This document shows, piece by piece, positions 1,982 to 16,578 of a stretch of DNA of 34,367 nt. A program made the translations under genes and the position numbers. The DNA lies in contig JAKFVC010000121.1 in NCBI GenBank assembly GCA_021732415.1, positions 1 through 34,367 on the forward strand, written 5' to 3'. The notes under the pieces are model-generated. The model saw only the letters and a list, made by a program, of their open reading frames with translations. It was not told where the DNA came from and did no database searches. The stretch is from Planctomycetaceae bacterium. GTDB lineage: Bacteria; Planctomycetota; Planctomycetia; Planctomycetales; Planctomycetaceae. Every line of letters begins with the position of its first letter. Positions within the stretch are counted from its first letter, which is position 1.

Positions 1982-3223
1982 CTAATTCGCCCGCCGTTGG
2001 GGAACACCGGGGTTCGCACCGGCATTCACGCGTTCGAAGTTCTCAACGGCCTGCTGCGACGCGTTCGTCGTTTTCCCGGCGAAGAAGTCGGTCAGCTTGA
2101 TGATCGACGGGCCCAGCAGGAAGATGTACACCGCGGGCATCAGGAACAACACCGTGGGGAACAACAACTGGAAGGTCGCCTTGTTCGCCTTTTCATCCGC
2201 TCGTTGACGCAGGCTTTCACGCATGTTTTCCGCGTAATCACCCAGGGCAACCGACACGCTGGTACCCATACGCTCGGTTTGAATCAGCAAGCTCGTGAAC
2301 GAGTGCACGTCAGGTGCATCGACGCGTCGCGAGAAGTTCGTCAACGCTTGCTCGAGAGTTCCCAATTCGGCCTGCTCGGCAACAATCTGCAATTCCTGCG
2401 ACAAGGCCGGGAACACGGTCCGCAATTCGCTGGTCACGCGTTTCAAAGCCGTGATCAGGGTCATACCCTGGCTGACGCACATGTTGAGCATGTCCAGCAC
2501 GTCGGGCAGCGACCGTTCGATTTCACTGCGCCGATCGGCCGCCTGGCTGGCAATATACAGCTTGGGCAAGGCCCAGCCGAGCACCGCCACCGCGAGCATC
2601 GTACCGATCGCCCACAGCTCTAATCGCTGCGGCAGCACGTTCACCATCACGCACAGCAACAGCAACGGCACGGTCAAGAAGATCCAGCGAATGGCCTGGA
2701 TGTTGTCGAACGCATGCGGCTGATAGTACCCAGCGCGAATCAGGTCCTGTTTCAGTTCGAGCTTACGTTCTTTCGAATCGGGCAAAGCCCCCGCCAGGAA
2801 CGGCGTCAATCCTGGACCGAATGCATAGTCCGATCCATCGGCCAGCGGAGTGTCCGCGGGATCAATCACTTCCTGCTGATCACCGAACGCGATCTTGTCC
2901 TGAAGTTGCGACACTCCAAACATCGTCGTCGCCGACTTCGGTGCCAAGTAGGGCACGTGTGGCGCAGGTACCGTGGAGTCGGTAACGGGAGTCGTCTTGA
3001 CCTGAGTCCGCGGAGGTTCCGGCGGCTTGACCGGAGCCACCTGGCCGACGCGCATCAACGTCTTAGACTGTTTGGGCTCACGACGAAAGAATTGAGGCCA
3101 GCGAAACTGGGGGAAGCGAAACCCAGGAAGCCGGGCGCGCAGAAAATTCACCGCGCGATAAACCAGCAACGCACCGAGCGCGATCACCGAGATCAAGATG
3201 GCCAGCAGGATTGTATTGTTCAT
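1982..3223 (-). CDS. tadC: TadC-like type II secretion F-domain protein (Tad pilus inner-membrane platform)
   Basis: A 413-residue inner-membrane protein. The N-terminus (residues 2-22) is a membrane segment; a basic, proline-rich hydrophilic linker of roughly 120 residues follows, then two membrane segments and a C-terminal T2SSF (GspF) domain with the four-helix pattern beginning ERSLPDVLDMLNMCVSQG and a final pair of hydrophobic segments. TadC and TadB together form the platform that the CpaF ATPase acts on. I start it at ATG 3223, preceded by GGAAG about 6 nt upstream; the open frame runs back to 3313 without a better site. It is longer than the roughly 300 residues usual for TadC, because of the linker. 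It follows tadB by 135 nt, with an inverted repeat in the gap. Confidence 0.85.
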   Translation of the reverse strand: MNNTILLAILISVIALGALLVYRAVNFLRARLPGFRFPQFRWPQFFRREPKQSKTLMRVGQVAPVKPPEPPRTQVKTTPVTDSTVPAPHVPYLAPKSATTMFGVSQLQDKIAFGDQQEVIDPADTPLADGSDYAFGPGLTPFLAGALPDSKERKLELKQDLIRAGYYQPHAFDNIQAIRWIFLTVPLLLLCVMVNVLPQRLELWAIGTMLAVAVLGWALPKLYIASQAADRRSEIERSLPDVLDMLNMCVSQGMTLITALKRVTSELRTVFPALSQELQIVAEQAELGTLEQALTNFSRRVDAPDVHSFTSLLIQTERMGTSVSVALGDYAENMRESLRQRADEKANKATFQLLFPTVLFLMPAVYIFLLGPSIIKLTDFFAGKTTNASQQAVENFERVNAGANPGVPQRRAN

Positions 3224-3247
3224 AGCGCGCTTCCACTTCAGATCGAC

Positions 3248-3351
3248 CTGGGGTCGGGTGTACGATTTTTCGAAATTTGCCGACTTCACGGCTCGTTTGC
3301 AAATAAAACTCACACTCGGCCAATTTCCAAAAATCGTGGCCCAGACCCCTG
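3248..3351. repeat. Inverted repeat between tadB and tadC
   Basis: Left arm 3248-3279 (CTGGGGTCGGGTGTACGATT then TTTCGAAATTTG) pairs with right arm 3320-3351 (CCAATTTCCAAAAATCGTGG then CCCAGACCCCTG), with a few mismatches. It lies wholly within the 135-nt gap and ends just before the ribosome site of tadC. The GGGGTCGGG...AAATTTG design resembles the palindrome at 18498-18593. Confidence 0.75.
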
Positions 3352-3358
3352 ATTGACC

Positions 3359-4222
3359 CTACGACCTAGACGTATTCTTCAGAATTCGCAGCACAATCGC
3401 AGCCCCGATCACCTGCAAACCAATCGCCGTGAGGGTCAGCGTGCGACCCCACGGTGAATCAAACAGATCGCGGAAATAGTTCGGATCGCGCCAGGCAAAG
3501 AACATCACAACTGCCGGTGGCAAACCAATCATCAACAACGACGCCGCGCGACTGGCGGCAGTCGCTGAACGCAATCGCCCCAGGAACGAAATACGGTCAC
3601 GAATCGTCCGCGACAACCGGTCCATAACCGTGACCAGATCACCACCTGTCTGCTGGTGTACCGTCAAGGCCATCGTAAACACGTTCATGCTGACGATGCC
3701 CGTCCGTGCGGGCAAATCCGCGAGGGCACTTGCCAGACCAACACCCATCGCCTGCCGGCGGGTACAGATACGTAACTCATCCCCGAGAGGGCTCGGCGTA
3801 TCATGCGCGACCATCTCCAAACACTGTTCCAAGCTGCGGCCCGTTTTAGCAGCACGCGACAATTCGTCGACCATGGGAGGCATCTGCTCCATGATCAACT
3901 TCTGCCGTCGGCTTCGAATGATCGCCGTAAAAATGATCGGCAAGGCTCCGCCCAAACCGGCCGCGACAGCCGACAGCAGCAGATTGTCCGTCATCACGAA
4001 CACCGAGCCAGCCATCACCAGCGAGCTCGAAAAGCAGAGGGCCGTCAGCAACGTCGCGGACATTTCCACGCCCGACTGCAGCACCAGCTTGTCGAACGCG
4101 GAGTTCATGTCACCCGTCAAACCGGAGTCCTCGGGAGACGAGAACTTATCCTGTTCGCGCAAGATACTCGCAAACGAGACTTCTCGCTCAACGGGAGGCA
4201 TTTCGGTCGTCATGGCAATCAC
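3359..4222 (-). CDS. tadB: TadB-like type II secretion F-domain protein (Tad pilus inner-membrane platform)
   Basis: A 287-residue membrane protein with two hydrophobic segments at about residues 55-100, a central T2SSF domain (MPPMVDELSRAAKTGRSLEQCLEMV, then a TGIVSMN...QQTGGDL block), and two C-terminal membrane segments. It lies directly after the CpaF ATPase gene and before tadC, the usual tadA-tadB-tadC order. With TadC it should form the platform that couples ATP hydrolysis to pilin insertion. Start choice is uncertain: GTG at 4222 has GAGG only 4 nt upstream, while ATG at 4213 has the same GAGG about 13 nt upstream; the two differ by three residues. The 253-nt gap from cpaF is long for a tad operon and carries several hairpins. 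Confidence 0.83.
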   Translation of the reverse strand: MIAMTTEMPPVEREVSFASILREQDKFSSPEDSGLTGDMNSAFDKLVLQSGVEMSATLLTALCFSSSLVMAGSVFVMTDNLLLSAVAAGLGGALPIIFTAIIRSRRQKLIMEQMPPMVDELSRAAKTGRSLEQCLEMVAHDTPSPLGDELRICTRRQAMGVGLASALADLPARTGIVSMNVFTMALTVHQQTGGDLVTVMDRLSRTIRDRISFLGRLRSATAASRAASLLMIGLPPAVVMFFAWRDPNYFRDLFDSPWGRTLTLTAIGLQVIGAAIVLRILKNTSRS

Positions 4223-4240
4223 TTTTCCTCGGCCCCTGTA

Positions 4241-4423
4241 GCCTGACTCTCCAGAGTCGGGCGAGCCTCTGTACTCACTAGATACTTCGTAAAAACTTAC
4301 AGATTACAAATTAGGTCCAGGGTCTTACCGCACCTGGGACCACTTAATCCCCGGCCTCTGTTGTTTTCTCCGTGTTCTCCGTGGTGCAATCAATCAGTTT
4401 TTTCACCACAGAGACACGGAGAA
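4241..4423. repeat. Cluster of three hairpins between cpaF and tadB
   Basis: The gap 4223-4475 holds no gene. It contains GCCTGACTCT-CC-AGAGTCGGGC (4241-4262), a GGTCCAGG/CCTGGGACC stem (4314-4341), and a longer imperfect inverted repeat with arms TTCTCCGTGTTCTCCGTGGTG (4366-4386) and CACCACAGAGACACGGAGAA (4404-4423). The last is built on the CACCACAGAGACAC motif that I recognise as a dispersed intergenic sequence in planctomycetes and relatives. All would be present in a cpaF-tadB transcript. Confidence 0.7.
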
Positions 4424-4475
4424 CACAGAGAGGACATTCTGAGGATGGTATTTTGTTAGGAATGCAAATCTTCGA

Positions 4476-5828
4476 TTACTGATAACGGCTCACGTAATTA
4501 CCACCCGTCGTCAATTCACGGGCCGTAAACAGCTCAGTCGGCAGGTGATATCCATATGCCGACAAACGCTTCAACACTTCCGGTTCATATCCTGTCGAAT
4601 AGAACGTACCGCTCAACATACCCTTGGAGTCCGTCCCGCCGAGCCGATACACAAACACGTCTTCCAGGTGATATGTTCCCTGTTGGCAATCGACCAGTTC
4701 AGTAATACGCATGACCTTACGTTCGCCGGACGCCAGACGCGACACGTGGACCAGAATGTGAATGGCTGACGCGATATATTGCCGCGACAACATAACGGGG
4801 AGTTCCGTTCCCGACAGAGCGATCATCAACTCCAGACGATCCAGAGCGTCACGCGTATCGTTGGCGTGGATGGTACTCATGGAACCATCGTGGCCGGTAT
4901 TCATAGCTTGCAGCATGTCCAAAACTTCGCCACCGCGAGCCTCACCGACGATGATGCGGTCAGGCCGCATTCGGAGGCTGTTCTTCAACAGGTCACGTTG
5001 CGAGATTTCCCCCTTACCTTCGATGTTCGGCGGACGCATTTCCAGCGACACAACGTCATTCTGTTGGAGCTGCAATTCAGCCGTCTGTTCGATGGTGATA
5101 ATGCGTTCGGTCGCTGGAATAAATCGACTCAAATTATTGAGCAACGTCGTCTTACCACCGCCTGTACCACCGCTGACGACGATATTCAAACGGGCCTTCA
5201 CGGCCATCATCAGGAAGTCGGCCATTTCGGGAGCCAGGCTGCCCAGGCGAACCATGTCTTCGAACTTGAACTCGCGCGTCTTAAAACGACGAATGGACAA
5301 CGTCGGACCACGCAACGCCAGCGGCGGAATAACGGCATTCAAACGCGAGCCGTCGGGCAGCTTGGCGTCGACCATCGGCGACACTTCGTCGATACGTCGA
5401 CCAGCTTTACCAACCAGACGTTGAATCACGCGCAGCAAGTGCTCATCGTTGGCGAACTTCACGTCGGTCTGCAACAGGCGGCCGTCACGTTCGATGTAAA
5501 CGCTGTTCGCTCCGTTCACTAACACGTCGCTGATGTTTTCATCGTGCATCAGGACTTCCAACGGACCATAGCCGTAGATTTCGTCCATCAGCTCGTTGAC
5601 CATGACGTCCCGGTCATGACCTTCCAGCACAACTGATTGCCGCGAGCACAAGTGAGCCGCCAGGGCCCGCAACTGCGCACGCAGGGTCTCATCCGACTGT
5701 TGCCCCGCCTTGGACAAGTCGATGGCGTCGACCATCTGGCGATGCAGGCGCGTCTTCAGTTCCTGAAATGCCTGACGATTCTTTTCACCCGCGGGGGGAG
5801 GTGCGGTCGCTGTAGCTGCCATAATCAT
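4476..5828 (-). CDS. cpaF: CpaF/TadA-like secretion ATPase of the Tad pilus
   Basis: A roughly 450-residue cytoplasmic hexameric ATPase of the VirB11/CpaF family that powers Flp pilus assembly. Counting from GTG 5831, the Walker A loop GGTGGGKT is at 221-228, the Asp-box region TIEQTAEL begins near 246, and the Walker B/catalytic region IIVGEARGGE is near 293-302, followed by the His box (STIHAND). The N-terminal half has the family's GPLEVLM and SDVLVNG blocks. The Asp box reads TIEQ rather than the usual TIED. The start is unclear: GTG 5831, ATG 5828 and ATG 5822 are clustered and none has a strong ribosome site; I list 5828. It is followed by tadB and tadC, and preceded by a tadG-like gene with a GAGAGT palindrome in between. 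Confidence 0.92.
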   Translation of the reverse strand: MIMAATATAPPPAGEKNRQAFQELKTRLHRQMVDAIDLSKAGQQSDETLRAQLRALAAHLCSRQSVVLEGHDRDVMVNELMDEIYGYGPLEVLMHDENISDVLVNGANSVYIERDGRLLQTDVKFANDEHLLRVIQRLVGKAGRRIDEVSPMVDAKLPDGSRLNAVIPPLALRGPTLSIRRFKTREFKFEDMVRLGSLAPEMADFLMMAVKARLNIVVSGGTGGGKTTLLNNLSRFIPATERIITIEQTAELQLQQNDVVSLEMRPPNIEGKGEISQRDLLKNSLRMRPDRIIVGEARGGEVLDMLQAMNTGHDGSMSTIHANDTRDALDRLELMIALSGTELPVMLSRQYIASAIHILVHVSRLASGERKVMRITELVDCQQGTYHLEDVFVYRLGGTDSKGMLSGTFYSTGYEPEVLKRLSAYGYHLPTELFTARELTTGGNYVSRYQ

Positions 5829-5879
5829 CACATTCTTACTAGAGCGGTTTCACTTAATGTTTGCGCAATCGAAAGCGTT

Positions 5880-5981
5880 TGAGAGTTTGAGGGTGCGAGA
5901 GTAACGGAGTAAGAGGGGGTCGGGATTCGAGTGGAATATCTCTTTACTCTCATACCCTCACACACTGTCACTCTCACACCT
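5880..5981. repeat. GAGAGT/ACTCTC palindromic repeat, copy 2 (between tadG-like gene and cpaF)
   Basis: Left arm 5880-5916 (TGAGAGTTTGAGGGTGCGAG...) and right arm 5944-5981 (TTACTCTCATACCCTCACAC...) pair imperfectly around a loop of about 27 nt. The element occupies most of the 195-nt gap upstream of cpaF. The left arm shares GAGGGTGCGAGAGT (with one change) with the copy at 8637-8733. Confidence 0.8.
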
Positions 5982-6027
5982 TCTGTCTGCGTAAACCTTT
6001 TGCTGAAACGCAATAAGTCAACTATTC

Positions 6028-7320
6028 TTAATCGGTCATCTTCAGTTGATAAACATATTTGCTGGCTTGAGCCGTCACCCCCACCATCCCTAAATCGGAC
6101 GGCAGGACTGCGCTGTGCGTCGCCAGCACACCCGGCTGAAAAACGAGCCGGTAATTCATTCCACCTGATTCTTGAACGGCCATCACCCGACCCGCCACCA
6201 GCCCGGACGACTGAATCGTTCCCGAACCGTTCTGATCGGTCTGCGTAAAATTCTCGTACAACATGACAGCCCGGCATTCACCGACAATTGTTTTCAAAGC
6301 TTCGGCGGCCGGCTTGGACATCGTCGCTTTGGCCGAGAACAGCTCAGGGCCACGGGTCATCAGAAAGCGCCCATCGCGTCGTTCCAGATCATCCAGGCTC
6401 CAGCCCAATCGAATCTGTTCTTCCAATGGAAAATGTCCCACTTGGCCATGCACGTCAAAAAAGGCCATATTCGCGGTACCGGGATCAGCGCCCGGAGGAG
6501 CAGGGTTCAAGATGATCTCGGGGATCCCATCGCTGCCGGCCACCGCTTCATGAGTGGAAGGATCGTAGCGAAACTTGTCTTCACCCCGTCGATTTTCAAT
6601 CTGGATCTGCCACGTATCCTGGCGTTGCCCAAGCGGATCCTTGGCCAGGATTGACAGGGGCAGCATCGGCACGCGAGCTCCACCAACCGACTGGAATCCC
6701 ACGACATGATTGTCGATGGAGGCCTCGGCTTGAGCTCGAACTTCACCGGCAGCGACATGCGTTAAACCACGGACAAACAATGCCACAGGATTCCCCCGGG
6801 CATGCAGCCGCTGGGCGACCATGCGGACCGAACGCGGGTCATGATTCGTCTCGACGAATTTGACTTCGCCCGTGTCTTCCACTTCGACCTTGACGCCAAT
6901 TGTGATGTCACCCGAATCAGAATTGAGCGTATACGGCTGGCCGGCAATGTGATTCATCGAGGCCACATTCTCAGCAGCCAGTTTCGCGGCGGCAATCCGT
7001 CCATCAGGGGCCGGTTCGGGAACGCGCAGAGCATCGTCGCTCGCCAGTTCACGACACGCAGCCACGGCCGCAGCTTCCGCGACACCCTGGGCTTCTTCCG
7101 TGGCCATATCGAGCCACAAGCGATCAATCACCAGGGCGACGGCGCTCATGACCACGACCAGAGCCAGGGCGACAATCGGCGCCAGCCAGCCCCGACGGTT
7201 CGGGCGTTCTCGCAGGTGATTTCGTCGAAGCTTCACAGTAAGGGGTCTCGGGCCACAGGTGGGAACCTGCAATTCATCAAACCACAGTCGCAGCAAAATC
7301 GCCGCGGCTGTGGTTTGCAT
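6028..7320 (-). CDS. tadG: TadG-like putative pilus assembly protein
   Basis: A 430-residue protein with a single membrane segment at about residues 45-67 (GWLAPIVALALVVVM...), preceded by RRG, and followed by a helical stretch rich in Ala and Glu (DMATEEAQGVAEAAAVAACREL). This is the N-terminal design of TadG and Tad-domain pseudopilin-like proteins (RRG, hydrophobic helix, D...AADAAALAA-type helix). The rest is a large extracytoplasmic domain that I do not recognise. The 44 residues before the helix are long for this family; a GTG at 7236 (residue 29) would give a more typical N-terminus but has only a weak GAGA upstream, so I keep ATG 7320. It lies 32 nt after cpaB and before cpaF. Confidence 0.72.
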   Translation of the reverse strand: MQTTAAAILLRLWFDELQVPTCGPRPLTVKLRRNHLRERPNRRGWLAPIVALALVVVMSAVALVIDRLWLDMATEEAQGVAEAAAVAACRELASDDALRVPEPAPDGRIAAAKLAAENVASMNHIAGQPYTLNSDSGDITIGVKVEVEDTGEVKFVETNHDPRSVRMVAQRLHARGNPVALFVRGLTHVAAGEVRAQAEASIDNHVVGFQSVGGARVPMLPLSILAKDPLGQRQDTWQIQIENRRGEDKFRYDPSTHEAVAGSDGIPEIILNPAPPGADPGTANMAFFDVHGQVGHFPLEEQIRLGWSLDDLERRDGRFLMTRGPELFSAKATMSKPAAEALKTIVGECRAVMLYENFTQTDQNGSGTIQSSGLVAGRVMAVQESGGMNYRLVFQPGVLATHSAVLPSDLGMVGVTAQASKYVYQLKMTD

Positions 7321-7352
7321 TATTCGTTAGATTCTTCGTTTCACAGCCATTC

Positions 7353-8540
7353 CTATCGCGGTCCGAAGTTCCGGTTCTGCCCATTGAACGCCGTCGGAGC
7401 CGTAGGATTGATCGGCAGGCCCGGCGCATTGTTCACCGACGGACCAGGAACAGGCGGAGCCGGCGTCACTGGCGGAGATCCTGCCGGTTGATTCGGATCG
7501 GCATACGGCGTCGGCGGTGCAACAGGGGTGGCCCCCGGCGCTGTGGGGTCGTTCAAGGGCAAGTTTGGAGCTCCAATCCCACCTGGACCGTAGCCACCCG
7601 GAGCTCCGTAACCGCCAGCTCCAGCGCCGAAGTCACTCTGAGTCCCGCGTGCGGTCGCTCCGATGCCATAGATGCCCAGATAGTTCCAGTTCTCAACGAT
7701 ACGCCCGTTGGGCATGAACCCGATCGGTGATCGAGTCTTCAAGCGGTATTGCTCAACCAGATAGGGCTCGGGCGGTTTGGGTTGCGGTGCGTCAGGTTGC
7801 TTCGGAGGCAACTGCAATAACTTTTCGAGGGTCAACCGATCCCCATCATCGTCCGAGACAATGACGCCACCGGGACTGGGGATTGGGGTGTAAGTCAAGT
7901 TCAACACGCCATTGCCCATGGCCAGCAACAATCCATTCGCTTGCCCGGGACGCACCTCCAAGACAATGGTGTTACCATTGGCTTCAGGGGCAGATTGAGT
8001 CACACTGCGGTTGATCGCGAGGACTTTAATTCCCTTGAACAGGGTCAACTGATAACCGTACGGAATACGATTATCCAAACGTGCCCAGGACGTATTGACG
8101 GTAAATTGAATGTCGCAATAGTCGCCAGGTCGGATCAAACCGTCGACAATCGCGGTGTTCGCTCCGATCGGCAGAGCAATGGCCTTCATCCCCTTCGCCA
8201 ATTTCAGCGGCGGACGCTCACCGGGAGCGTACAACTGATTGGCCTTGATCGGCACCGCCTTTTTCAGCGGTTCACGAGCCACGCGGCCAATGATGATCTT
8301 GTTATTGGCGAGCATATCCGGGGTCAGCGTGCTGACCAGCGTCGGGGCCGTACCGAGGTGCTTCTCGGTAATCTCCGTACCGACCGCAATATCCGCCACA
8401 GGCGTGGGCATGTTACGTGTCGCGACTTCGGGAGCTTTCTGCTCACGAGCCATCAGTGTGCGAACCACATACGCAGCCACTAACAGGCCCATGATGGCCA
8501 TCACTCCAAACGTGAGCGCGGCAGGTGTGAGACGTTTCAC
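7353..8540 (-). CDS. cpaB: CpaB/RcpC-like Flp pilus assembly protein with Pro/Gly-rich tail
   Basis: A 395-residue periplasmic protein anchored by an N-terminal membrane segment (about residues 10-28). A SAF-like domain follows (VADIAVGTEITEKHLG, then GRVAREPLKKAVPIKANQL, about residues 45-107) and then the RcpC domain with MKAIALPIGANTAIVDGLIRPGDYCDI. These are typical of CpaB, which works with the outer-membrane secretin in Tad systems. The last ~90 residues are a low-complexity Gly/Pro/Ala/Asn tail that is not usual for CpaB. GTG at 8540 is the start, with GAGGA 8 nt upstream. It is followed 32 nt later by the tadG-like gene; no secretin gene lies beside it, which is the common arrangement elsewhere. 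Confidence 0.88.
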   Translation of the reverse strand: MKRLTPAALTFGVMAIMGLLVAAYVVRTLMAREQKAPEVATRNMPTPVADIAVGTEITEKHLGTAPTLVSTLTPDMLANNKIIIGRVAREPLKKAVPIKANQLYAPGERPPLKLAKGMKAIALPIGANTAIVDGLIRPGDYCDIQFTVNTSWARLDNRIPYGYQLTLFKGIKVLAINRSVTQSAPEANGNTIVLEVRPGQANGLLLAMGNGVLNLTYTPIPSPGGVIVSDDDGDRLTLEKLLQLPPKQPDAPQPKPPEPYLVEQYRLKTRSPIGFMPNGRIVENWNYLGIYGIGATARGTQSDFGAGAGGYGAPGGYGPGGIGAPNLPLNDPTAPGATPVAPPTPYADPNQPAGSPPVTPAPPVPGPSVNNAPGLPINPTAPTAFNGQNRNFGPR

Positions 8541-8636
8541 GGTGCAATTCCTCTATCAACTCGCCTATTTGTAGGTCGGATGGTCCGCCTGCGATCGGGC
8601 TACTGAATCTCGTTAATTGGATGCCTGGATCAAATA

Positions 8637-8733
8637 GTGTGAGAGTAAGAGGGTGCGAGAGTGTCGGAGTAAGAACCAAACGAGGTGGTATTCCCACCCC
8701 ACTCGCTCACACTCTCATACACTCACACTCTCA
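8637..8733. repeat. GAGAGT/ACTCTC palindromic repeat, copy 3 (between tadE and cpaB)
   Basis: Left arm 8637-8674 (GTGTGAGAGTAAGAGGGTGC...) and right arm 8702-8733 (CTCGCTCACACTCTCATACA...) pair imperfectly. A small extra stem, GGTGG/CCACC, sits in the loop near 8684-8698. The gap 8541-8796 contains nothing else that I can name. Confidence 0.8.
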
Positions 8734-8796
8734 TATAATTTTGATTTCAGCAGGACGACTCGAAACTGAAGCCTTCATCCCTGATTCCCTGGCGAC

Positions 8797-9234
8797 TCAC
8801 TCCCTCACGACACTCGTTTCCTCAATCAGAAACCGTCCCTGTAAACTAAAACCGACTGGCCACAACAAATCGGGCGCAGCGGTCGACATCGGAACGGTTA
8901 AGCCCACCGTGGTGATTTCACCCGCCCGTTCGGCCGGGATGTAATAAACCGTGTGGTTGTATTGCAGATTCGGACTCAAGACGCGGTTCACAACAGCTTC
9001 AATTTCGGACTGATCAGTGACTCCCATAGAGGCCCGCCGCGCTGCCGCTCGACAGGCCTGCACCACCGACGATCGGGCAAAAAACAACATGCTGAATTCG
9101 AAGACTGCCATCAGTACGGTGAACAGAATTGGCAAAACCAGGATCATCTCCATGGTCAGCAAACCACCGCGCCGCACTGGTTGGCGACGACCGGCGACTG
9201 ACTTCGAGATGGACGCGTTCCGAATCTTCAACAT
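8797..9234 (-). CDS. tadE: TadE-like pseudopilin
   Basis: A 145-residue TadE-family minor pseudopilin. A basic N-terminus ends in RRGG, followed by LLTME and the hydrophobic helix ILVLPILFTVLMAVFEFSMLFF. If the peptidase cuts after the second Gly, Glu falls at position +5 of the mature protein, as in type IV pilins. The downstream ARSSVVQACRAAARRAS helix is also typical of TadE. The mature part would be embedded in or sit on the inner membrane as a scaffold for pilus assembly. ATG at 9234 is the start; its ribosome site is weak. It follows the prepilin peptidase gene by 66 nt, which suggests co-transcription and shared processing. Confidence 0.85.
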   Translation of the reverse strand: MLKIRNASISKSVAGRRQPVRRGGLLTMEMILVLPILFTVLMAVFEFSMLFFARSSVVQACRAAARRASMGVTDQSEIEAVVNRVLSPNLQYNHTVYYIPAERAGEITTVGLTVPMSTAAPDLLWPVGFSLQGRFLIEETSVVRE

Positions 9235-9300
9235 GCAACACCACTCATCACAAGCACGGCCTCAAATCACTCTCCAGTGCCCAGCTGAGCAACCGGATGA

Positions 9301-9987
9301 TCAAGTATTCTTTTCGTTCGGCTTGGGCTCAGCGTTCAAATTCACGGCATCTTTCGGGACGACGACTTTCGGCGGAGCCGATTTCTTAGCCGCCTCTTCC
9401 AGCTTGCGCTGTTTAGCCAGTTGGGCCTGATGTTGTTTATAAGTCTGCCGGGGCACGTCATAGGCGGTGACCAGCACCGTTCCCAAAGCCACTGACAGAC
9501 CGAAGCTCATACCCATACGGCCCCGGTTGATCTTCAACATCTCCAGACGCTTCTTACTCTTGCCCGAAGTATCGCTACCCGGCAGCATCTGATTCTTAGT
9601 CTTATAGACTCCCTTAGTCAGCATGCCCCAGAGCATGACGAATCCCGTCCCCAGCACCACAAACACGGTACTGGCGATGATCATGCCGATCGTTCGATTA
9701 AATCCCAACCAGACTGACACGGCCCCAGCCAGCTTGGCATCGCCTCCGCCACCGCTACCAATCAACCACAGGATGAAATACATCCCGAAGCCAATCGCAA
9801 AACCCGCCAGGCCATTTAATAACCCGGAGAATCCATAAAACGCGAACTGATAGACCCACCCGAGAAAGAACGCGGGCAGTGTCAGGTAATTCGGAATTTT
9901 TTGGATCCGATAGTCAATGACGGCGGCGACCAGCGTAAAGGCGCTCGCACAGACAATCAGAACCCAACCAGCAACATCAGGATACAT
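9301..9987 (-). CDS. cpaA: CpaA/TadV-like prepilin peptidase (A24 aspartic protease) with basic tail
   Basis: A 228-residue polytopic membrane protease that cleaves and may methylate Flp-type prepilins. The two active-site aspartates are visible: DYRIQKIPN near residue 24, and the GxGD motif in GSGGGGDAKL near residue 80. Hydrophobic segments surround both. The C-terminus adds about 70 residues, including a Lys/Ala/Pro-rich stretch (KQRKLEEAAKKSAPPK...), making it longer than the usual 150-170 residue TadV proteins. I start at ATG 9987; a GTG directly before it (9990) has GTGGA 8 nt upstream and is an alternative that adds one residue. The longer frame to TTG 10044 has no support. As the first gene of the - strand cluster, its promoter should lie in 9991-10459. 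Confidence 0.88.
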   Translation of the reverse strand: MYPDVAGWVLIVCASAFTLVAAVIDYRIQKIPNYLTLPAFFLGWVYQFAFYGFSGLLNGLAGFAIGFGMYFILWLIGSGGGGDAKLAGAVSVWLGFNRTIGMIIASTVFVVLGTGFVMLWGMLTKGVYKTKNQMLPGSDTSGKSKKRLEMLKINRGRMGMSFGLSVALGTVLVTAYDVPRQTYKQHQAQLAKQRKLEEAAKKSAPPKVVVPKDAVNLNAEPKPNEKNT

Positions 9988-9990
9988 CAC

Positions 9991-10459
9991 AGGACAGTTC
10001 CACCTACGAAGTGAGACACTTAAGAGACCATTTCCCGTGCTCAATCATCACAAGGCGATTCATCGCAAATGTGACACTGCGCAACCGTCAAACCTGGCGG
10101 TGTTGGAAACAATCCTTCGTGTTGAAAACATACGACACGTTTATGCAACAGCGCATCAAACGTCGCCCAATTGACGAATTCTCCCATAGGACCATAACCG
10201 GATTGGAGCGTAAAACCGGTCCTGACGGCCTATTTTTTTAGTTAAAGTGCCGGCAGAATCGCGACCATCATCACAACCCGAACGACAGCTCAAACCGGCA
10301 ACAGGGTTACGCGGAAGAAACGCGATTTAGCGATTAACCCCCAAGACCGCGATCCTTGAGGCAGATGGAGACGTGCCTCGATGCGATTCGTGCTCTAGCG
10401 CTTGTCAATTTGCAGCGAATGGCCAAATTCCGGCGATCGTAGACGGCCTCGGGCATGGG
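9991..10459. other. Gap upstream of the tad cluster; no gene seen
   Basis: About 470 nt between the prepilin peptidase start and the stop of the serpin-like gene. I searched both strands by eye for a short Flp pilin (a 50-70 residue frame with a hydrophobic helix) and saw none. A TTGACA hexamer on the - strand (complement of 10403-10408) resembles a -35 box, but no convincing -10 follows. The tad promoter probably lies here, without a firm position. Confidence 0.5.
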
Positions 10460-12307
10460 TCAGCGACCGGGCATCATCCATTCGCTGTTCGCTACCCACG
10501 CAACGAGATAGGGCGCGGACGCGTCACGTTCCTGCATCCACAGCAAAAATGGCCGGTCGAATGTCAGTTTCCGAGCTTTTTTCGGATCGTACTCTGACGG
10601 TCCAAAATCACCGATGATGACGGCTTCGGATTCCACGATCGACCCGGTCTCATCCAGGCGGAACTGGATTGTCTGGGTTGCCTGAATGATCTGTCCCGGC
10701 TGTTGTTGAGCATCGTGAAATTGCAGGCCATTCAATTGGTCGAAGTCTTTGACGATCGAGAGTTCCAGCACAGGGATGAGTAGTCTGTCACCTCCGCCAA
10801 TCGTCGTACGAAACCCGTTGGTCGCCGGTTTGGCGATTTGCGTTTGTGCGGCCTGCAATGTGGTGGCCAGAGTCTGGCCGGGGGCAATTTTCGCCAGGTA
10901 GATTTCATCTTTCCCCAGTCGCGTATGGAGCCGCACGATGAAGTCGGCGTCACTGACATGATTCAGGACGTCCACTTGGCGTACCAACTGCCCAATACGT
11001 CCGTCCTCAGCCGGGTCACCGAGAATTCCGAAACTTTCCACCCGATCGGATGCCTGGCGGGCCTGGAAAGTCAGCTGATCTTCGAAGCGATCAAACTTGA
11101 CCGCAAACGGCAACTGCTTCGAGAGCGCCGCATACAGAAAGAACCCCAGGTCCGGAACCGATTGCAAATCCTCCGAAAGTGGCCCCTCAATGTTACGAGC
11201 CTTCAGTCGTTCCAGCAGTTTCGGAACATCCGCCCGCGATCCCGAACCAACAAGATAACTGTCGGCCGCCAGATTGCGCCGATCAAATCGACTTTGGTTG
11301 AGCTGATTAACAAGATCAGAAACTGTATCACTGTGCAACTTGGTCTGGTTCTCATCCTGCCATTGGTCCCACGCGATCTGGAACGTGACACAGGAAATCA
11401 CATTCTTATCCCCCGCGAGCGGGGTATCCAGAACTGGTGAAACCTCCGTGCGACGAAACTCGGTGGCGGGGCGGACAGGTTGAAGTGCTTGCGGCTCCTC
11501 CATCGGGGCGGGAGGCCACTTCACTCCAGGCAGGGGAATTCCGCCGTTGATGCTGGTCAATGCTCGCAGTATCTTCCGGTCAATACTCTTGTTGATCAGG
11601 CGAACGTGCGCATCGACGAACGCCACCAGAACCCCACTCCAAGCCTGCGTTGCCGGATTGACTGGGGCAACGACCTTTTCGACAACATCCGCACTCGTCA
11701 CATCACGCGGCTCCATCCAATGAATGTCGGCTTCGAAATAGCCGACCAATTGCAACGAGTTTGATGGCCCGTCGACGACGTCTGCGATTTTCGCGGAGTA
11801 GCGTCCTGGCCAGACCGTTTCCGGCCCGACGATTGCCAGGACATGCGTCTCCCCAGTCAGACTATCCGTAAACCAGGGATTACCGAAGACCTCGGGCCGC
11901 AGACGGTGAAACTGAGAGTTGTGCGGGCTGTTCCACGGCTCATTGAGCCGCAACTTCTGGTAGAGATCTTGCTGCCCCAACTGCGGCAGCAGCAATACGC
12001 GCCACGAATGGAGGAGTTGGCCATCGCTCCCCACAGTATACGCGGGCGGAAAGACCCCATATTGCTGCTCATACTGATGGAGGCCTAAAGTCACTCGCCC
12101 CAGTTGAGCCTTAAAATTACCTCTAGCAATATTGGACCGAGCACCTTGAATCCCTTGGATGAAGTATTTCGCCACTAAGAATACGACCAGGGCGAGCACC
12201 AACCATTTCAACCAGTTTCCCCAGGCACCAGAGTCTGTGGAAGTGTCATCCGCCGCAGTGGTCGTAGCGGCAATGTCTGGCGTTACTGAGATCTGGTCTT
12301 GAGACAT
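10460..12307 (-). CDS. Membrane-anchored protein with DUF1559-like domain and serpin-like C-terminal region
   Basis: A 615-residue protein. Residues 31-50 form one membrane segment. Residues ~60-270 resemble the globular part of DUF1559 proteins (GLHQYEQQYGVFPPAY, HSWRVLLLPQLGQQDLYQ, EPWNSPHN, and a late FVDAHVRLI strand), but there is no prepilin FTLIE signature. Residues ~310-615 look serpin-like: an opening KNVISCVTFQIAW block, a hinge-like FRLDETGSIVESEAV near 550-563, and the C-terminal FDRPFLLWMQ strand at 583-592, which matches the serpin DRPFLF motif. The hinge lacks the short-side-chain run of inhibitory serpins, so inhibition is doubtful. I chose ATG 12307 because AAGGA lies 7 nt upstream; the frame opens at 12370. 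It diverges from a DUF1501 gene. The DUF1559 part is fairly sure; the serpin part is inference from motifs. Confidence 0.62.
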   Translation of the reverse strand: MSQDQISVTPDIAATTTAADDTSTDSGAWGNWLKWLVLALVVFLVAKYFIQGIQGARSNIARGNFKAQLGRVTLGLHQYEQQYGVFPPAYTVGSDGQLLHSWRVLLLPQLGQQDLYQKLRLNEPWNSPHNSQFHRLRPEVFGNPWFTDSLTGETHVLAIVGPETVWPGRYSAKIADVVDGPSNSLQLVGYFEADIHWMEPRDVTSADVVEKVVAPVNPATQAWSGVLVAFVDAHVRLINKSIDRKILRALTSINGGIPLPGVKWPPAPMEEPQALQPVRPATEFRRTEVSPVLDTPLAGDKNVISCVTFQIAWDQWQDENQTKLHSDTVSDLVNQLNQSRFDRRNLAADSYLVGSGSRADVPKLLERLKARNIEGPLSEDLQSVPDLGFFLYAALSKQLPFAVKFDRFEDQLTFQARQASDRVESFGILGDPAEDGRIGQLVRQVDVLNHVSDADFIVRLHTRLGKDEIYLAKIAPGQTLATTLQAAQTQIAKPATNGFRTTIGGGDRLLIPVLELSIVKDFDQLNGLQFHDAQQQPGQIIQATQTIQFRLDETGSIVESEAVIIGDFGPSEYDPKKARKLTFDRPFLLWMQERDASAPYLVAWVANSEWMMPGR

Positions 12308-12616
12308 CGTTTCATCCTTAAGCCTAATTGTACCGTGACGTGATTCGCCGTAGAGAGGGTGAAACATCATTTCGCTATTTTTTCAACGAGGTCGATTTCT
12401 CGACCCGATCGGCGTGATGGAAATTCCGTCTCGGATACAGACAGACAGAATTGCATCGACACTATTTGATGCGTACTATGAACGACCAGTCAGGTCCAAA
12501 CTGCGCATCACCGCGATCCGATAACCTCACGCGTTGCTTCGAATCTCGATGAGACATCGCGAGACGGCCAAGGAGTACTCAGTGAGTCATCGCCCGGGAA
12601 CCATGAGGCTGTCACC
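12308..12616. promoter_or_regulatory. Divergent intergenic region, probable promoters for both flanking genes
   Basis: About 310 nt separate the - strand serpin-like gene from the + strand DUF1501 gene, so both promoters should lie here. A small stem GGTCGA-TTTC-TCGACC sits near 12390-12405. I could not assign -35/-10 boxes with confidence. Confidence 0.4.
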
Positions 12617-15184: not shown

Positions 15185-15594
15185 CGTAACCCCATTTCTT
15201 GCCACCCGAGCTCACGTGATCTGAGTACAATTTCAGATCCGTTCACCGCAAACATCGGACAGAGAAGCTCGCGGATCAATCGACTTTGTCATACAAACAT
15301 GTGCAGTATCAGATTCGCGAGGCACAGTCATGACCATGGGCTGGATTAGCTGACCGTGCAGTTCGTGTACACTGAATCTCTTTGCCGCACTCGGCTCGAT
15401 GATATTGGCCAGCATGCCGTAGCATTTGCCCCAGCGGACATGGTACAACATGCCTACGGAACTGCGACTCGCCTATTATTCCATGTACTCAAGACTCACT
15501 GTCAATAGCTTCGCGACATCCGCTACGTGCCGCCTCAGCACGCTGGCGCTTGAATGAACATTTTCATTTCAGTTCTACCATAATCGAGGATTCT
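15185..15594. other. Gap with a 7-bp dyad; no convincing gene
   Basis: This divergent gap probably holds promoters for the membrane protein (leftward) and the DUF1559 gene (rightward). A dyad GATCTGA-N8-TCAGATC (15218-15239) lies close upstream of the leftward start and could be an operator. A 72-codon - strand frame (15233-15451) is open here but lacks a ribosome site and any family features. Confidence 0.4.
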
Positions 15595-16578
15595 ATGTTG
15601 CGGCGAAACCTGTCTGCCCCGGCGTTGCGAGTTCGCTTCTCTCGACCGGCATTTCTCAGCCGTTCACGAACCGGTTTTACACTGATCGAACTCCTGGTGG
15701 TGATTGCCATCATCGCCGTGTTGATTGCCCTCCTGTTGCCGGCTGTGCAACAAGCTCGTGCAGCGGCGCGACGGACGCAGTGCAAAAACAACATGAAACA
15801 GCTCGGGCTCGCTGCGCACAACATTCACGACACCTATAAGTATCTCCCGCCACTCGTCGCCCCGGCCTCAGGGAGTCTCACGACGGTCAAAGGCCCGTAT
15901 ACAGGCGCAACAGGCTATACGGTGTTCGACTGGCTGCTGCCGTACGTGGAACAGCAAAGTCTGTATAACGCGGCGAATCTGAATGTGAACACCACCGTCG
16001 GTGGCCAACCGGTCTATCGCAATGTGATTGTGTCCTATCTCTGTCCTTCTGACGTCAGCTCCCCGGGCAACATGGGCGCGACCACCAATGGCAGTGCCAA
16101 TCTGTGGGCTACAAGCAATTATGCGGCGAACTATATGGCCTTCGGTGACCCCTCGAAGGCTACCGACGTCGAATGTCTGGAAGGCAAGAACAACCTGGCC
16201 ACGTTCGTCGATGGGACCTCCAACATGATTGTGTTTGCCGAACGCTACGGCACGTGCGGCACAAGTGGGGTCGCCAATTCGGCCTCGACCTATGGCAACC
16301 TGTGGTCCGATTCCAACTCCGTGTGGCGACCTGTGTTTTGCCTCAACAACTATTCGCAGGTCTCGACGCCCGGCACCTACTCGCCATGTCTGACGTTCCA
16401 GGTCCAGCCGAACTGGGTCTCTGCATGTGAGTCGCGCCGAGCTCAGTCGCCCCATGAACAAGGCATGAATATCTGCCTGGGCGACGGCAGCGTCCGCTTT
16501 GTCAGCGGCAATATCAACGCGACCGTCTGGGCCAACCTCTGCGATCCGCGCGATGGGGCGGTGGTCGGCGAGTGGTAA
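15595..16578 (+). CDS. DUF1559 prepilin-like protein
   Basis: A 327-residue DUF1559 protein, the large planctomycete family with a type IV pilin-like N-terminus. The processing site is visible at residues 27-32 (G-FTLIE, Glu at +5), followed by the hydrophobic helix [25 protein letters not shown]-like region. The family blocks [32 protein letters not shown] and YLCPSD follow, with the C-terminal H-x9-DG motif in [16 protein letters not shown]. Probably anchored in the membrane or assembled into a pseudopilus; the family's role is unproven. ATG 15595 has GAGG 5 nt upstream, which rules out the longer TTG frame from 15550. The lipoprotein gene 46 nt downstream is its usual partner. Confidence 0.93.

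Follow-up and report, generated by a model that had tools for sequence, protein, structure and literature searches.

Does the C-terminal part of a DUF1559-type membrane protein from a planctomycete carry a serpin fold, and if so, could such a domain work as a protease inhibitor? This question was raised by one gene of the window (by which we mean the whole stretch of DNA analysed, 34,367 nucleotides), for which a first-pass annotation had proposed a DUF1559-like membrane protein fused to a serpin-like region. The open frame runs on the minus strand from an ATG at 12307 to a stop at 10460 and encodes 615 amino acids. An earlier ATG at 12370 would extend the product to 636 residues in a frame that is also open; AAGGA stands just 5' of 12307, and nothing similar was seen ahead of 12370. 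Both motifs on which the proposal had been built are present in the protein, with the hinge-like segment DETGSIVESEAV at residues 552-563 (10654-10619) and FDRPFLLWM at residues 583-591. The features of the gene and of the loci compared with it are collected in Table 1.

Table 1. Location of the features discussed (window positions unless a locus is named)
Feature	Position	Strand	Basis
Whole gene: hydrophobic pilin-like helix, DUF1559 region and serpin-like domain, 615 aa	10460..12307	-	open frame
Long predicted helix with hydrophobic stretch, likely membrane anchor, residues 28-83	12059..12226	-	full-length model and hydropathy
DUF1559-like region, residues 36-260 (Pfam match proper 68-132)	11528..12202	-	PF07596, E 2.2e-16
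Diverged serpin-fold domain, residues about 290-615	10463..11440	-	profile and structure comparisons
Hinge/proximal reactive loop, residues 555-566, predicted strand directly after s5A (537-552)	10610..10645	-	models and alternating conservation
Low-confidence loop of variable length, residues 567-582, equivalent of the distal reactive loop	10562..10609	-	stretches with pLDDT <50, alignment
FDRPFLLWM, residues 583-591, terminal-strand motif common to serpins	10535..10561	-	profile alignments
Tad/Flp pilus genes (A24 peptidase, TadE, CpaB, TadA, two T2SSF), downstream, neighbours only	1982..10044	-	annotation of neighbours
Recurrent cluster: transglutaminase-core, serpin-like, Peptidase_M23	L084:3447-9509, L082:4431-9605		
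Same Geotalea-type transglutaminase-core/serpin-like/M23 cluster	L187:4798-9682	-	
Geotalea-type serpin-like and M23 locus; caspase-like-tailed protein not found in the available stretch	L083:2708-4679		
Geotalea-type serpin-like and M23 locus; caspase-like-tailed protein not found in the available stretch	L188:5207-7962	-	

The N-terminal helix and the DUF1559 region

In Pfam, the N-terminal region matched DUF1559/SBP_bac_10 (PF07596) with 61.1 bits (cut-off 23.3), and open reading frames of about 270 amino acids resembled residues ~36-260 at 30-36% identity (30-33% for those of the same genome) without having a serpin part. A prepilin-type N-terminal motif and an H-X9-DG motif are usual in the DUF1559 family. 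Another DUF1559 protein of the window (15550-16578, plus strand) has both N_methyl and H-X9-DG, whereas the protein studied here shows neither and, unlike this neighbour, adds a serpin domain. It had no prepilin cleavage motif, no N_methyl match in Pfam and no match in NCBIfam, and a prepilin-like motif was retained in 1 of the 21 fused members with a readable N-terminus. The full-length AlphaFold2 model placed residues 28-83 in a single continuous helix. All fused rows with a readable N-terminus (21/21) contained a hydrophobic 19-residue window with a mean hydropathy of 1.62-2.88, as judged by this hydropathy window and not by a membrane predictor, which supports the earlier description of the protein as membrane-bound. 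As for the size of the family, 74 DUF1559-type genes are given for Rhodopirellula baltica (PMC2754498) and a group of 68 DUF1559 paralogues for Planctopirus limnophila (PMC10632474).

Since tad genes lie directly downstream on the same strand and the helix is pilin-like in shape, the protein could belong to the adjacent Tad pilus as a minor pilin-like component, with the serpin domain displayed at the tip or base. We rejected this role and consider it very improbable, because Tad linkage was seen in only one of the 41 related loci described below, that of the 77%-identical nearest relative (L061; L002 is the same place). The other 40 loci had no Tad genes, though several of them are short, and with linkage solely in the nearest relative it is best seen as local. 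The missing prepilin cleavage motif, and the single fused member that has a prepilin-like one, also speak against a pilus part. The Tad cluster itself includes a 430-aa open frame (6028-7320, minus strand) that has no Pfam or NCBIfam match and contains a hydrophobic stretch close to the N-terminus.

A very diverged serpin domain at the C-terminus

When the whole protein was searched as a single sequence against Pfam, NCBIfam and the PDB sequences, no serpin match was obtained. Its own genome contained 0 PF00079 matches, and the domain alone reached PF00079 at E 0.14 with 11.8 bits, below the gathering score of 27 bits. Single-sequence searches would thus have led us wrongly to dismiss the serpin proposal, and profiles were therefore required. 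Within the same family, 22 of 170 genomes (own genome counted) had relatives of residues 290-615, and a pattern-based scan of GTDB contigs returned the 41 related loci. One of these, L101 from a Bacteroidaceae record, is a classical serpin that was reached through 70 residues; it was omitted on purpose from the 35-row profile so that the AlphaFold2 model would not be led by it. The seven omitted loci also include L093, L095, L096, L097, L098 and L100, which are fragments or contain masked stretches or unclean frames.

Against the PDB sequences, a 25-row profile gave 47 matches at E<=10, of which 46 were serpins (best E 0.0016), and the 35-row profile gave 33 matches, 29 of them serpins and four viral fibers at E >0.5. 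The latter profile matched PAI-1 at E 1.2e-6, in register through the hinge and the PFL motif, and Serpin-12 (6cj7) at E 3.1e-4 (profile 69-316, chain 134-380); the s5A-hinge-loop-PFL order of the serpin superfamily is thus in register with the family. Across the 35 rows, which are 19-76% identical to the window protein, the Gly at P15 was invariant or nearly so, as were the Arg, Asp, Pro and Phe of an RxFxFDxPF motif.

A match to the Pfam serpin profile, which the first-pass annotation had expected of a true serpin, held for the relatives and failed for the window domain by itself. At E<=10, PF00079 was matched by 22 of 25 members (best 1.4e-5) and by 32 of 35 members (best 1.5e-6), mostly weakly. 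The eight members for which a bit score was given lay between 11.8 and 23.0, under the cut-off of 27, and five further members had no match at E<=0.1. One genome with two family members (G255) had a PF00079 match of 3.4e-6, and some relatives may pass the cut-off. Conversely, the family profile picked up 19 of 36 classical serpin ORFs at E<=0.01 (E-values computed for 36 sequences), with 0.8 as the best value among their reversed copies. The best of these matches was L101 at 2.6e-11, which had been retrieved by similarity, followed by one of 7.5e-7. Sequence search from L101 also reached one family member (L054/L072) at 8.9e-6, and local hhalign of the family with classical serpins covered 81 columns at E 2.5e-6 for one pair. 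A global hhalign over 286 columns was discarded, as its N-terminal half looked arbitrary.

Structure comparison, which had been suggested as a check and which we ran on residues 290-615, showed a serpin fold. AlphaFold2 modelled this domain on the 35-row alignment with a pLDDT of 87.9 and a pTM of 0.88 (80.1 and 0.57 for the full-length protein). The best VIA-align match of the domain model was RCL-cleaved vaspin, with Z 18.4 and an rmsd of 4.0 over 273 of 326 residues; the full-length model gave Z 18.7 over 277 residues. Sequence identity to the matched serpins was 8-16%, and the 50 listed VIA-align rows are, as we take them, all serpins by title or by protein identity. Of the 346 PDB chains that Foldseek matched at E<=0.001, the best 50 were all serpins by protein, with a probability of 1.00, a TM-score of merely 0.43-0.55 and an rmsd of 6.7-13.3. 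The domain therefore shares a common fold over 273-277 residues with the PF00079 superfamily (PAI-1, vaspin and antithrombin, as well as thermopin, tengpin and miropin). It is compact, with six predicted helices of at least four residues in 326 residues as compared with the 370 positions of the PF00079 model, and the element list of the model suggests that hA, hD and s1A have likely been lost. Among predicted viral proteins there were 24 structural matches at E<=0.001, and many of these carry the name serpin; a scan of viral sequences found no relative, and plasmids gave no match.

The empty single-sequence searches would also be expected if the resemblance were due to chance, without a common fold. 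This is hardly credible and refuted in practice, since the profile, decoy and structure tests were concordant. Fold and profile thus agree on the serpin-like nature of the region, and these computations show that the C-terminal domain is a very diverged member of the serpin superfamily.

Hinge and reactive loop

The consensus published for inhibitory hinges is ExGTEAAAA (PMC8233489). It is matched neither by the window hinge, which reads ETGSIVESE from P17 to P9, nor by the family pattern AxLxSxA, which contrasts with TEAAAAT in classical serpins. Parsing by pattern returned hinges for 60 of 73 family rows, at least three of them wrong (L033, L047 and L050), and family counts were therefore taken from a 67-row alignment with 65-66 letters a column. 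In this alignment P17 was Glu in 50/65 rows and P15 Gly in 65/66, while P14 was Ala in 49/66, P10 Ser in 58/66 and P8 Ala in 43/66. P12 was Leu, Val, Phe or Ile in 65 of 66 rows (47, 14, 3 and 1, respectively) and Ala in the remaining one, as against Ala in all 37 readable hinges of classical serpins. The classical set comprised 39 ORFs (planctomycete serpins and L101), of which 27 hinges were counted, 10 read by eye and 2 left unread. The first-pass annotation had seen in the hinge an argument against classical inhibition, and the P12 counts support this view. The inhibitory hinge consensus has been lost, and classical suicide inhibition of proteases is probably not what the domain does.

What the hinge does instead is suggested by its conservation and by the models. 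Column entropies at P14, P12, P10 and P8 were 1.27, 1.21, 0.60 and 1.79, compared with 3.02, 2.84, 2.92 and 3.56 at P13, P11, P9 and P7 and a domain median of 2.80. With even positions kept and odd ones variable, the hinge shows the pattern expected of a beta strand that buries one of its faces. Such a strand directly follows s5A in both models (residues 555-562 in the domain model, 555-566 in the full-length model), and in VIA-align the serpins closest to the domain model were mostly of the loop-inserted kind: among ranks 1-19, 14 titles described cleaved, loop-inserted or loop-peptide-bound structures, five were silent and none was native. The first title with "native" appeared at rank 20 (Z 16.6 vs 18.4), and at rank 46 for the full-length model (Z 15.4 vs 18.7). 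These comparisons should be read with the provision that both models come from one predictor, which may favour the inserted state. Foldseek speaks against a loop-inserted state, since its top matches by E-value were native antitrypsin structures (from 3.0e-9 on; TM 0.50-0.52), with a slightly higher TM of 0.55 for cleaved CBG.

How far do these data leave room for a working suicide inhibitor, tethered to the envelope and trapping intruding or self proteases with a core adapted to Leu at P12? Conservation of Glu at P17, Gly at P15 and small residues at P14, P10 and P8 means that insertion-competence may persist. The serpin fold over the whole domain and the Foldseek ranking of native antitrypsin would also suit an inhibitor, as would the distal loop, which varies in length and sequence among relatives. 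Serpins are moreover at home in this phylum, with PF00079 above its cut-off in 100 of 294 Planctomycetota genomes. We nevertheless consider a suicide inhibitor unlikely, if still a serious contender, given the departure from the published consensus, the near absence of Ala at P12 and a hinge that is already a strand in both models.

A nearly invariant Phe of the family pairs with a Trp of the classical serpin L101 in a weak local alignment of 4.2 bits, and the profile alignment places a Gln where PAI-1 also has Gln. We take these positions to be canonical breach/shutter residues; for the N-terminal shutter positions the alignment was unreliable. Streptomyces Group U serpins deviate in the breach and shutter and are likewise bacterial serpins suspected of being non-inhibitory (PMC8233489). 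They can be found as serpins by BLAST and many have an inhibitory hinge, a description that sets them apart from the window protein, which was missed by single-sequence search and lacks such a hinge.

Relatives, gene neighbourhoods and proposed role

The fusion of DUF1559 and serpin is conserved. A profile of the DUF1559 region matched 23 of the 67 domain rows, and these form one side of a single branch (support 98/92) in a tree whose deep forks are weak and whose bootstrap is unsettled, so that its deep order was not read. L065 counts as unfused merely because its N-terminus is missing at a contig end. Elsewhere in the tree, L090 has a sub-threshold DUF1559 match, so that a similar fusion may have arisen a second time. 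Other unfused relatives start with different leaders: N-termini read by eye as lipoprotein-like (L069, L074, L076, L082, L084), T2SSG (L087), an ECF sigma factor (L092), CarboxypepD_reg (L080, L086), WG repeats (L068) or a zinc-ribbon match below cut-off (L083). They are labelled as Geobacter relatives, Spirochaetales, Cloacimonadota, Lentisphaerae and others, mostly from MAGs with fallible labels. Family members were present in at least 25 of 392 genomes, with at most five candidates scored per genome. In a searched literature short of most subscription papers, no paper was found that pairs a serpin with DUF1559, and papers naming both serpins and planctomycetes deal with other subjects, to go by their titles and abstract openings.

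Several relatives are of interest in their own right. The genome of the window holds a remnant of a second serpin-like paralogue (L060; contig C131:9316-9522), the last 72 residues of which match the paralogue of a related genome at 76% identity, with nothing upstream in the 3.2-kb locus matching it at E<=0.01. L092 (7317-8927) joins the ECF sigma factor, a hydrophobic stretch and a serpin-like domain in one frame, perhaps to tether the sigma factor to a sensor domain. Two serpin-like domains stand in successive frames at L093:6569-8768, likely after a tandem duplication. Classical Planctomycetota serpins occur within open frames of 734-760 aa (L139, L140, L150, L160), and other serpin fusions may thus exist in this phylum.

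The neighbours of some unfused relatives hint at a link with peptidases. The order of Geotalea has a family member in 5 of 141 genomes, and in all five loci a Peptidase_M23 gene (identified with Pfam or tblastn) adjoins the serpin-like gene. Three of the five also have, upstream, a Transglut_core protein whose tail is caspase-like (YYSGH(G/S)...C). Its gene directly precedes the serpin-like gene in L082 and L187, with its stop codon in L187 immediately followed by the serpin-like frame, and is separated from it by one gene in L084. In another lineage (L069:7833-10339), a serpin-like lipoprotein is followed without a gap by a Peptidase_C14 protein (E 2.1e-12) with a signal-like N-terminus, and the first possible start of the latter overlaps the serpin-like stop codon. 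Among 2104 open frames (L061-L161 and the window), the caspase-like motif pair, chosen after the first cases had been observed, occurred only in L069, L082 and L084; it was also present in L187, among 12 loci added later.

These arrangements would fit a role in which the serpin-like protein reversibly regulates or chaperones a dedicated envelope peptidase, caspase-like or cell-wall, with the serpin fold serving as a binding scaffold. For the window protein we regard this as rather unlikely. The scanned fused planctomycete loci had no caspase-like motif, including L078, which does have a Transglut_core neighbour, and when 112 neighbour ORFs were picked mechanically from 34 loci, none of their Pfam families turned up in more than three at E<=1e-5. 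The post hoc choice of the motif counts against it as well, and a CHAT match was found in one of the three Transglut_core tails at 0.0088 and in neither of the other two. Searches with PF00656 gave 0 matches in the genome of L084 and, in that of L082, one on another contig. The genome of L069 has 10 C14 matches, so the adjacency there could be due to chance. We therefore treat the peptidase neighbours as a lead and not as proof, and a regulatory role as an open one.

The explanation that we propose is a membrane-anchored fusion in which a serpin-fold domain with a built-in loop acts as an envelope-tethered display or binding module and not as a suicide inhibitor; we judge it about evenly balanced between right and wrong. 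The pilin-like helix and the DUF1559 region would hold the C-terminal domain outside the cytoplasm. The hinge and proximal reactive loop would form a permanent strand s4A of sheet A, and the domain would fold straight into a relaxed-like state. With the hinge as a built-in strand, the stressed-to-relaxed trap is unlikely and would be out of the domain's reach. In such a state the domain could be a stable module for the display or binding of an envelope protein, and in some lineages this partner may be a peptidase, as the gene neighbours suggest.

A wider version of this explanation extends to a whole bacterial serpin subfamily of Planctomycetota, Geobacter relatives and several candidate phyla. 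Its members would fold directly into the loop-inserted form, be tethered to the envelope repeatedly (by DUF1559, a T2SSG-like pseudopilin or a lipoprotein anchor) and control partner peptidases, caspase-like ones included, reversibly and without suicide trapping. As a whole, this version is decidedly unlikely. We have filed the domain as a variant of the serpin fold and not as an inhibitory serpin, in a subfamily for which no description was found in the searched literature.

Taken together, the data add to the serpin fold a deep branch from free-living bacteria, one that lies largely below current detection thresholds and has a changed hinge. This bears on the role of serpins in bacteria, and on whether a serpin can give up its metastable trap and still retain the fold. 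DUF1559 is abundant in planctomycetes and of unknown function, and through the fusion this family gains a partner domain that can be recognised. Where unfused relatives adjoin caspase-like and M23 genes, they offer cultured systems (Geomonas, Geotalea) in which a function can be approached.
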